DNA from: a virus
Direction: 5' to 3' (one strand)
DNA: 34,048 nucleotides
IMG/VR virus record: IMGVR_UViG_3300020202_000173
Location: 1-34,048 of that record
Part shown: one piece after another, positions 1,175 to 3,352 of the stretch
How positions within the stretch are numbered: position 1 is the first letter of the stretch
Layout of the letters: every line of letters begins with the position of its first letter
Translations under genes and position numbers: made by a program
The notes under the pieces: generated by a model
The model's input: the letters and a program-made list of their open reading frames with translations, nothing else
Told to the model about the DNA's origin: nothing
Database searches by the model: none

Positions 1175-1893
1175 ATGGCCTGGATTTATTTAGCGGAATC
1201 GGAGGAATCACCCTTGCCCTGGCTCCCTGGGTGCGACCGGTCGCCTATTGTGAAAACGACCGATACGCTCAATCTGTCCTCTTATCCAGAATGGCTGAAT
1301 CTGTCATACCACTTGCCCCTATCTGGGACGATGTTAGAACCCTGGACGGATCATCCCTCCCTGAAATTGACATCATTTCCGGAGGATTCCCTTGCCAGGA
1401 TATCAGCTCTGCTGGACCTGGAAAGGGCTTGGAAGGTGAGCGAAGCGGGCTTTATTGGGAAATGTATCGGCTCATTGGCGAACTTAAACCCCGATTCGTC
1501 TTTTTGGAAAACGTGCCTTTCATCACTTCAAGAGGTGGTTGCCAGGTGGTTGAATCACTTACCGCAATCGGGTATGACTGTCGATGGACAATTCTGCCAG
1601 CCGCTGCAATTGGAGCAGCCCACCTTAGAAAACGTTGGTTCCTACTGGCCCACCATAACGGCAAGGGATTGGAGAAATACCAGGGGGAGAAGCCGAGGCG
1701 AGAGCAGTGGGAAAGACATCATACACTTCCTAAGCCTATTCCATCAGGGCAAACCTGTCCAATTGAAGCCGTCATGGACAGAGCAATACATGGGGTACCC
1801 TACCGGGCACACCGAATTAAATGCCTTGGTAACTCGGTGGTACCGCTCCAGGCGCGGACGGCGTTCATGCGCTTGATGGGCCTTTGCACATAA
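1168..1893 (+). CDS. dcm: DNA (cytosine-5-)-methyltransferase, compact
   Basis: This is an S-adenosylmethionine-dependent C5-cytosine DNA methyltransferase of 241 residues. All core motifs are present in order: motif I DLFSGIGG (6-13), motif IV GGFPCQDIS with catalytic Cys76, motif VI ENV (114-116), motif VIII HLRKRWF (152-158) and motif X GNSVVP (221-226). It is short for the family, with only about 60 residues between motifs VIII and X where the target-recognition domain normally lies, so its specificity is unclear. SD GGAGG at 1159-1163 precedes ATG 1168, which overlaps the dCMP deaminase stop. No restriction enzyme is adjacent, so it is probably an orphan phage methylase for protection against host restriction. 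A 233-codon ORF lies entirely inside it in the +1 frame. Confidence 0.92.
   Translation: MLNGLDLFSGIGGITLALAPWVRPVAYCENDRYAQSVLLSRMAESVIPLAPIWDDVRTLDGSSLPEIDIISGGFPCQDISSAGPGKGLEGERSGLYWEMYRLIGELKPRFVFLENVPFITSRGGCQVVESLTAIGYDCRWTILPAAAIGAAHLRKRWFLLAHHNGKGLEKYQGEKPRREQWERHHTLPKPIPSGQTCPIEAVMDRAIHGVPYRAHRIKCLGNSVVPLQARTAFMRLMGLCT
1175..1876 (+). CDS. Nested ORF within the methyltransferase gene (+1 frame)
   Basis: This is a 233-codon frame lying wholly inside the methyltransferase gene. Its translation is not random-looking. It carries SSFWKTC (108-114), SGMTVDG (132-138), WPTITARDW (158-166) and PSWTEQYMGYPTGHTEL (199-215). From memory, many phage and prophage proteins share the same order of motifs (S-W-K-T, W-P-T-P-x-A-x-D-W, then V-E-W-x-M-G-Y-P-x-G-x-T-x-L), often annotated as hypothetical or methyltransferase-associated; I could not run a search. 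ATG 1175 lies 7 nt after the methylase ATG, so one SD (GGAGG, 1159-1163) could serve both at spacings of 4 and 11 nt. Either both products are made, or the second frame is a conserved by-product of constraints on the methylase. Confidence 0.5.
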   Translation: MAWIYLAESEESPLPWLPGCDRSPIVKTTDTLNLSSYPEWLNLSYHLPLSGTMLEPWTDHPSLKLTSFPEDSLARISALLDLERAWKVSEAGFIGKCIGSLANLNPDSSFWKTCLSSLQEVVARWLNHLPQSGMTVDGQFCQPLQLEQPTLENVGSYWPTITARDWRNTRGRSRGESSGKDIIHFLSLFHQGKPVQLKPSWTEQYMGYPTGHTELNALVTRWYRSRRGRRSCA

Positions 1894-1905
1894 TGCTTAT
1901 TATGA
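1883..1905. repeat. TTTGCACATAA + hairpin element, copy 1
   Basis: TTTGCACATAA at 1883-1893 overlaps the methyltransferase stop and runs into a small inverted repeat, ATAAT-GCTT-ATTAT. The same 11-mer with an analogous but different inverted repeat occurs at 2423-2443. This suggests a repeated regulatory or processing element in the gaps of the left block. Confidence 0.4.
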
Positions 1906-1983
1906 GACTCCAAATCTGAATCGGAAAATGCACAACAGTAAATGTAATCCAATATAGTTTACTCTCGGAGGTAAAAAAATATC

Positions 1984-2415
1984 GTGGAAACACCTGATAA
2001 CACTGAAGCGAAAGAGAACCAAAATGGTTCGTTTACGAATAACAGAGACACCAGCACCTATATCCTCAGCGAAATTGAAGGCGCACTTGCTAAAAATCTA
2101 AAGGCAATCAACGAACAAAATGAGATGGTGTTATCTGCCTTTGAAAAGATGAAGGCCCACTATAAGCCATCAGCTATTGACGGTAAAAAATGGGGTGAGC
2201 ACGTTGCCTTATCAATGGGTTACGAGCTGGCCAACAGGCAAAAAGAAACCCTGTATAACGCTATGGTTGCTATTGTTGCTGAAAACGGGGCTTATTCCGA
2301 TATAGATGACTTTATGCGCTATTACAGCGGGCTTACTGAAAGGCAGATGAAGCATCACCCGAGGGAGCACCGGATCATTTACCAGGCTCTACGGGAGTAC
2401 CGGCAGTATTTATAA
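1984..2415 (+). CDS. Hypothetical protein
   Basis: This encodes 143 residues with no recognised family. The first 30 residues are polar and Asn/Glu-rich, probably disordered, followed by a predominantly helical body (EIEGALAKNLKAINEQNEMV; RQKETLYNAMVAIV) and a basic, aromatic C-terminus ending LREYRQYL. The start is GTG at 1984 with GGAGG at 1967-1971, a slightly long spacing of 12 nt. It sits between two copies of a TTTGCACATAA element in the accessory block carrying the methylase and HNH endonuclease. No function is assigned. Confidence 0.65.
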   Translation: METPDNTEAKENQNGSFTNNRDTSTYILSEIEGALAKNLKAINEQNEMVLSAFEKMKAHYKPSAIDGKKWGEHVALSMGYELANRQKETLYNAMVAIVAENGAYSDIDDFMRYYSGLTERQMKHHPREHRIIYQALREYRQYL

Positions 2416-2422
2416 ACCCTGT

Positions 2423-2443
2423 TTTGCACATAACGTCCGTTAT
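2423..2443. repeat. TTTGCACATAA + hairpin element, copy 2
   Basis: TTTGCACATAA at 2423-2433 is followed by ATAACG-TC-CGTTAT (2430-2443), a 6-bp inverted repeat. Copy 1 at 1883 has the same 11-mer and a similar symmetrical continuation with different stem bases, so symmetry appears to be kept while sequence varies. It lies between the gene ending at 2415 and the HNH gene. Confidence 0.4.
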
Positions 2444-2476
2444 CTTACCCCGTTATAGAACACAGAAAGGATCAAG

Positions 2477-3145
2477 ATGGTAAAAGAAATCCCTTTAAAT
2501 AAAGGTAAAGTTACCTTGGTAGATGACGAAGACTACGAGATGTACAAGGATCATAGATGGTTCATCCGTGAAGGCTATGTTATTGGGCTGGGGGAAGTGT
2601 TCAAAGGCAAGAGATTACACCGGCTTATAATGAATCCTCCTGATGGCATGGTTGTTGACCATCGCAATGGCGATCCTTTGGATAATAGGCGGGAGAATCT
2701 CCGAGTGTGTGAGATAAAAGGTAATGCAAGGAACCGCCGTCCAAATACTGGGTATAAATACAAAGGTGTTCGTTTCACCGATGGTAAATGGTTAGCTCGC
2801 ATTACTGTCAATGCTACCAAACTCCACCTAGGGTACTTCGCCTCAGAGGAGGAGGCAGCAAGTGCCTATAATGCAGCGGCTCTACATTACTATGGGGAGT
2901 TTGCCTGGTTGAATGAAGGGGTTCCGACTGTGGAGTACAGAGAACCAAGACGCCGAACAAACCCATATAAAGGAGTATCGTTTCATAAACGTATAGGGAA
3001 ATGGGTGGCTCAAATTGCAGTCAACCGGAAGGCGAAGCAGTTGGGTTACTTTAATACCGCAGAAGATGCCAGGGACGCCTATCTGGAAATGAAAGAATTG
3101 TTGAAAGCAGATCCTGAAGCTTTGCAGTTATATTTTGGCTCGTAA
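2477..3145 (+). CDS. HNH endonuclease with two AP2-like DNA-binding domains
   Basis: This is a probable free-standing homing-type endonuclease of 222 residues. The N-terminal half matches phage HNH_3 proteins: IPLNKGKVTLVDDEDYE, then RLHRLIMNPP, VVDHRNGDPLDNRRENLRVC and the closing Asn/Arg cluster, giving the His-Asn-His metal site. Two AP2-type domains follow: YKGVRF..GKWLARI..LGYFASEEEAASAYNAAA (about residues 93-145) and YKGVSF..GKWVAQI..LGYFNTAEDARDAY (about 163-205). AP2 domains contact DNA with a three-stranded sheet, so they should supply site specificity. The SD GAAAGGA lies just upstream of ATG 2477. It is convergent with, and directly abuts, the next minus gene. Such genes are typically mobile in phage genomes. 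Confidence 0.9.
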   Translation: MVKEIPLNKGKVTLVDDEDYEMYKDHRWFIREGYVIGLGEVFKGKRLHRLIMNPPDGMVVDHRNGDPLDNRRENLRVCEIKGNARNRRPNTGYKYKGVRFTDGKWLARITVNATKLHLGYFASEEEAASAYNAAALHYYGEFAWLNEGVPTVEYREPRRRTNPYKGVSFHKRIGKWVAQIAVNRKAKQLGYFNTAEDARDAYLEMKELLKADPEALQLYFGS

Positions 3146-3352
3146 TCACTTCCCAAAATCAACCAACCCCAGGTCATCCAATGAAAACTTCCAGCCATTG
3201 GACAGGTAAAACCGGATCTTCTCCAGTCCTATCTCCTGGTAGCGCTCGTAGTGCACCACCTCGGCCCCTGATTCCTTCAGCATGTTCTCTAGAACCCAGC
3301 GTTGGCGCTTGGTCATTCCGATTTTATCGAGGTTCACATATCGACCGCTCAT
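3146..3352 (-). CDS. Small hypothetical protein
   Basis: This encodes 68 residues of unknown function, transcribed from ATG 3352 leftward. The sequence is helical and charged (MTKRQRWVLENMLKESGAEVV) followed by a strand-like C-terminal part (IRFYLSNGWKFSLDDLGLVDFGK). Its stop codon abuts the stop of the convergent HNH gene with no intergenic base. The ribosome-binding site is weak (GGAAT about 6 nt before the ATG). It may be a small regulator or inhibitor, but nothing identifies it. Confidence 0.55.
   Translation of the reverse strand: MSGRYVNLDKIGMTKRQRWVLENMLKESGAEVVHYERYQEIGLEKIRFYLSNGWKFSLDDLGLVDFGK

Follow-up and report, generated by a model that had tools for sequence, protein, structure and literature searches.

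A phage C5-cytosine DNA methyltransferase probably encoded in two overlapping frames of the same DNA

An open reading frame of 233 codons that lies wholly inside a phage DNA methylase gene raises the question of whether it encodes a protein of its own and, if so, what that protein would contribute to the methylase. The frame in question is found in a stretch of viral DNA of 34,048 nucleotides (IMG/VR record IMGVR_UViG_3300020202_000173; hereafter the window), which is part of a tailed phage with portal, major head protein, terminase and primase/helicase genes. The methylase frame (alpha; 1168-1893, 241 aa, starting with ATG) corresponds to the large (catalytic) domain of a C5-cytosine methyltransferase and matches PF00145 (E 1e-39) and phrog_363 (E 4e-59). 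The nested frame (beta; 1175-1876, also starting with ATG) lies entirely within alpha in the +1 frame, exactly as the original prediction had described it, and would encode a small-domain subunit with a TRD-like region and motif IX. All window features given here are on the + strand. It is very probable that the two frames together specify one C5 DNA methyltransferase, an alpha/beta heterodimer most like M.EcoHK31I.

Starts and openness of the nested frame

The ATGs of alpha and beta are 7 nt apart, and a single GGAGG Shine-Dalgarno sequence (1159-1163) lies 4 nt 5' of the former and 11 nt 5' of the latter, so the shared ribosome-binding site and start spacing of the original prediction are present in the sequence. 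Upstream of the pair is a dCMP deaminase gene (686-1174; PF00383, E 9e-25) in the same frame as beta, and its TAA (1172-1174) stands immediately 5' of the beta ATG (TAAATG). The alpha ATG, the deaminase TAA and the beta ATG all fall within 10 bases (1168-1177; ATGCTAAATG). The same bases read CLGNSVVP in the alpha frame and ALVTRWYR in the beta frame, also as first noted. Further downstream, an HNH endonuclease gene with AP2 repeats (2477-3145, +; PF00847, E 2e-14; PF13392, E 2e-9) lies near the methylase and probably encodes a homing-type endonuclease.

The original prediction had also considered that beta might be fused to alpha by a frameshift. Ribosomes that shifted out of the alpha frame into beta, and then returned for motif X, would make one polypeptide with the domain order that is indeed seen in single-chain homologues, but beta begins at its own ATG, preceded by an in-frame stop codon and a Shine-Dalgarno sequence, the 7-nt start spacing is kept in most of the close family, and motif X could be reached only by changing frame twice. 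A fused product is therefore not needed and is considered very unlikely.

The openness of the +1 frame is not due to chance. When synonymous codons of the window alpha were permuted, the +1 frame acquired 7.05 stops on average, and it was open in none of 300 shuffles; the same permutation over 103 non-identical relatives gave a mean of 6.15 stops and left 0.33% of the shuffles open. A homologue search, which the original prediction had called for, found relatives of the +1 frame in many phages, and no stop interrupts this frame among close methylase homologues. By scanning IMG/VR with beta, 34 relatives were identified, and in every one a methylase overlaps the beta frame in the +1 register seen in the window. 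Because a scan based on beta is biased, viral contigs were also scanned with the methylase alignment alone, and beta was present in the +1 frame at 80 of the best 80 loci. The frame offset was always +1 (119 loci), and in most of them the beta frame opens 7 nt past the alpha start.

Domains carried by each frame

Catalytic motifs I (GLDLFSGIGG, 1177-1206), IV with the catalytic PC (GGFPCQDIS, 1381-1407), VI with ENV (RFVFLENV, 1492-1515) and VIII (RKRWFLLAH, 1627-1653) are invariant in the alpha alignment (A2), which identifies alpha as a C5-cytosine DNA methyltransferase; motif VI also aligns with HhaI. Motif X (CLGNSVVPLQA, 1822-1854) was located in the same alignment and has a counterpart at the HhaI C-terminus. 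It had been claimed that the methylase frame holds all five core motifs, which proved wrong: alpha has I-VIII and X, and neither a TRD nor motif IX was found in alignment A2 or in the HhaI comparison, the interval from VIII to X being only a variable linker. Thus, alpha does not combine TRD and IX with I-VIII in one chain as a monomeric C5 methyltransferase does. The structural comparison gave the same picture. The AF2 model of alpha (pLDDT 80) matched M.HhaI at a Z of about 19, and about 190 residues aligned across HhaI 11-321, a number too small for the small domain of HhaI to be covered, and most of that domain has no counterpart in the model; the VIII-X linker itself has low pLDDT.

This gap in alpha, without TRD and motif IX, explains the presence of beta. 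Motif IX of beta (LKPSWTEQYMGYPTGHTEL, 1763-1819) has invariant E203 and M206, is supported by the phase test, and stands in frame with motif X in a single-chain homologue. The C-terminus of the beta alignment carries a conserved LNPxWVEWLMGYPxxWTxLE, which agrees with motif IX in both location and pattern and follows a set of PTPTAxD modules. Before it in the window is a TRD-like region (1649-1762), which begins with a PTITARD module and is recognized by its frame-specific identity; in alpha, the same bases encode the unconserved linker of low pLDDT. Further upstream lies an N-domain (SFWKT...SGMTVDG...VGSYWPTITA, 1499-1660) that is conserved, including in single-chain relatives, while residues 1-100 of beta are under weak constraint. 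Among the relatives, the TRD region consists of 0-6 TPxA-type modules with a median spacing of 33 aa (for example, L031 at 1331-2194 and L122 at 1564-2313), and these modules are possibly a modular recognition domain.

Beta matches the phrog_1008 family 'DNA methyltransferase' (E 1e-11), as do all 32 members of alignment A1. No match was found in Pfam or NCBIfam, and comparison of the beta profile with PDB sequences yielded a chance match alone. The single-chain AF2 model of beta was poor (mean pLDDT 56, pTM 0.27), and no PDB chain matched it by fold; its BFVD matches, all with E near 1 or worse, were set aside.

The C-terminal half of beta could be identified because single-chain methylases of Mycobacterium prophages join TRD, IX and X to I-VIII. 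In the prophage prophiFSAT01-1 methylase (L126, about 450 aa), motifs I-VIII, PTPTASD, LNPRFSEWMMGWPQDW (IX) and GNGVVPQQA (X) all lie in one frame, and residues 258-445 match phrog_1008 (E 6e-50). As judged from sequence, the C-terminal half of beta shares homology with the TRD-IX segment of such single-chain C5 methylases. This homology bears on the possibility that beta is a separate accessory protein, such as a regulator or an anti-restriction factor, overlapping a methylase that works without it. The extra conserved N-domain of beta would fit such a protein, and it keeps its +1-frame constraint even in the single-chain Mycobacterium prophage methylases. However, alpha is without motif IX and TRD, and the C-half of beta corresponds to the TRD-IX part of single-chain enzymes, so that an independent accessory role is regarded as unlikely. 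A second product that supplies the missing targeting function, which had been offered as speculation, is the best-supported reading, since beta has the motif IX and TRD-like region that are absent from alpha.

Selection on the two frames

Both frames are under selection, which supports the proposal of a dual-coding modification locus, and between motifs VIII and X selection shifts from the alpha frame to beta before it returns to alpha. In pairs that are 80-97% identical, amino-acid identity in the catalytic part (codons 68-103) was 0.97 for alpha vs 0.75 for beta, and in codons 104-162 it was 0.90 vs 0.86; the order was reversed in the linker/TRD region (alpha 0.60 vs beta 0.89) and in motif IX (0.89 vs 0.96), and returned in motif X (0.94 vs 0.73); these figures are descriptive, since the 21 closest pairs represent a small number of clades and cannot be counted as independent. 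The direction of frame-specific conservation was unchanged among pairs of 70-80% and of 60-70% identity, so that it holds in all three bands, and a further analysis agreed. Within the linker, mismatches by alpha codon position were 0.36 at position 1 (the beta wobble position), 0.085 at position 2 and 0.055 at position 3, which is the codon periodicity of beta. For the motif IX columns of beta, pairwise identity was 0.485 vs 0.251 in alpha-preserving shuffles. The codon-level constraint in the overlap that the original prediction had proposed to look for was therefore found in the second frame.

These patterns also decide how the open frame itself should be read. It could in principle be an untranslated by-product of conserved alpha codons, and the beta HMM does give alpha-preserving shuffles a median score of 78 bits, vs a median of 155 for the real sequences. 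Matches to this HMM are partly a by-product of alpha and by themselves weak proof of beta, for which the openness of the frame, the codon-phase pattern of substitutions and the single-chain homologues are the proof. On the other hand, six to seven stops appear in the shuffles, the codon-phase pattern of the linker follows beta and not alpha, and the C5-methylase motif IX is present solely in the +1 frame, which makes a by-product extremely improbable.

The preferred reading, one enzyme from two frames, involves several predicted steps. Frame 0 would provide the large domain, which is catalytic and includes motifs I-VIII as well as a motif-X helix that packs back on it, and frame +1 would provide the small domain with the target-recognition region, motif IX and the extra N-terminal domain. 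The single Shine-Dalgarno sequence may serve both starts, and beta might also be started by reinitiation once translation of the deaminase ends at the adjacent stop. The two polypeptides are predicted to assemble into the active enzyme, in which alpha would bind SAM, flip and methylate the base, and beta would select the target sequence. Because the window belongs to a tailed phage, the role of this enzyme would likely be the shielding of phage DNA from restriction.

Relatives and comparison with known split methylases

The survey comprised 110 nested loci with motif X in alpha, five single-chain forms and two or three staggered ones. In the staggered forms (Streptomyces and Mycobacterium phages Vash, Samy and Wizard007), alpha ends after motif VIII, and TRD, IX and X are in beta. 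In the catalytic-domain tree, single-chain and staggered forms fall together in one actinophage clade, and the tree does not settle whether the nested or the single-chain form is ancestral. The nested arrangement proved to be widespread in phages, but its second gene mostly goes unannotated: both genes are already annotated in Paenibacillus phage Jacopo, and in E. coli PT62, where beta is present, the annotation covers alpha alone.

Several relatives show further arrangements. A +1 ORF of 91 codons that encodes the beta N-domain but lacks an ATG persists in the single-chain methylases of Mycobacterium prophages (L126, 1028-1300; same place in L127-L129). Between L126 and L129, third-position changes per 30 codons were 14, 13, 10 and 9 before this ORF, 1, 2 and 4 inside it, and 12, 11 and 13 after it; it seems to be translated, because the third-position changes of the methylase fall sharply exactly there. 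L130 is an intermediate architecture, in which a single-chain methylase (1899-3314) with motif IX in its own frame is accompanied by a 260-codon +1 ORF (2011-2790) that still encodes the beta N-domain together with several TP modules. In L033, an insertion of ~500 nt (about 2490-2990) splits the methylase just ahead of motif IV, with a TGA inside this motif in the alpha frame; the insertion gives a weak helix-turn-helix match below the Pfam cut-off and appears HNH-like by eye.

A search of genome contigs, limited to one peptide pattern, turned up a single locus, a count that does not reflect prevalence in bacteria. On the Picosynechococcus PCC 7002 plasmid pAQ5 (L146), a 404-codon +1 ORF (1696-2907), annotated at its 3' end only, runs across a distant C5 methylase gene (1800-2612). 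By eye, the +1 frame contains a motif-IX-like SPEAMAMYMGFPWHLF and alpha a motif-X-like stretch, although the IX and X HMMs were not significant. Its identity with M.AquI was considered and not shown, the X-like stretch being in alpha and the IX-like one in the +1 frame; its sequence looks like another nested case.

Taken more broadly, the nested two-frame class may be large and mostly unannotated in phages, with selection swapping frame at each domain boundary, specificity exchanged through the +1 frame alone (0-6 repeated TPxA modules in each protein), and an enzyme that requires the beta N-domain, which is not seen in canonical methylases but which single-chain relatives continue to conserve in their +1 frame. 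The chances that this wider proposal holds appear evenly balanced. On the two-frame reading itself, a large number of phage genes with an annotation as full cytosine methylases would each supply an inactive half of the enzyme unless the hidden +1 gene is expressed as well, and cloning or annotating alpha by itself would mislead. Such loci would also represent a natural case of nested genes for two interacting halves of one enzyme in which the selected frame changes domain by domain, as well as ready-made split methylases, a type of enzyme that has already attracted interest as a tool for targeted methylation. Split methylases as a kind are already known; their phage-wide spread, the TRD in beta and the extra conserved beta N-domain look under-recognised. 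The passages searched in papers on P. larvae phages, PRFect and Burkholderia phages contain no discussion of the alpha/beta overlap.

Among known systems, the monomeric enzymes M.HhaI and M.HaeIII share the catalytic fold of alpha but have motifs I-X in order in one chain. In PHROGs, alpha and beta belong to two 'DNA methyltransferase' families, phrog_363 and phrog_1008, which are listed separately and whose entries state no alpha/beta relation. C5 methylases that are cut between motif VIII and the TRD reassemble efficiently (PMC5944983). M.AquI (CYCGRG) is a naturally split C5 methyltransferase that is cut in the variable region (PMC3404938). Its IX and X are both in beta. The window shares the natural split, but its motif X is in alpha, so that its arrangement is not that of M.AquI, which is resembled by the staggered forms of Vash, Samy and Wizard007. 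As in split C5 methyltransferases generally, the motifs are spread over two predicted polypeptides with IX outside alpha at the 110 nested and two or three staggered loci.

The closest counterpart is M.EcoHK31I (YGGCCR), whose beta (176 aa) is encoded within alpha (309 aa) in another frame. Compared by description and not by sequence, the window beta has a greater length (233 aa), and its start lies 7 nt downstream of the alpha start. The TRD of M.EcoHK31I has been predicted in alpha (PMC3404938), whereas in the window it is beta that shows the TRD signal and the alpha linker lacks conservation; the location in M.EcoHK31I is only a prediction and hence was not taken as defining the kind. In this two-polypeptide enzyme, alpha carries motifs I-VIII and X and beta carries motif IX (PMC3404938, citing Lee et al. 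1995), which is the arrangement found in the window and at 110 loci.
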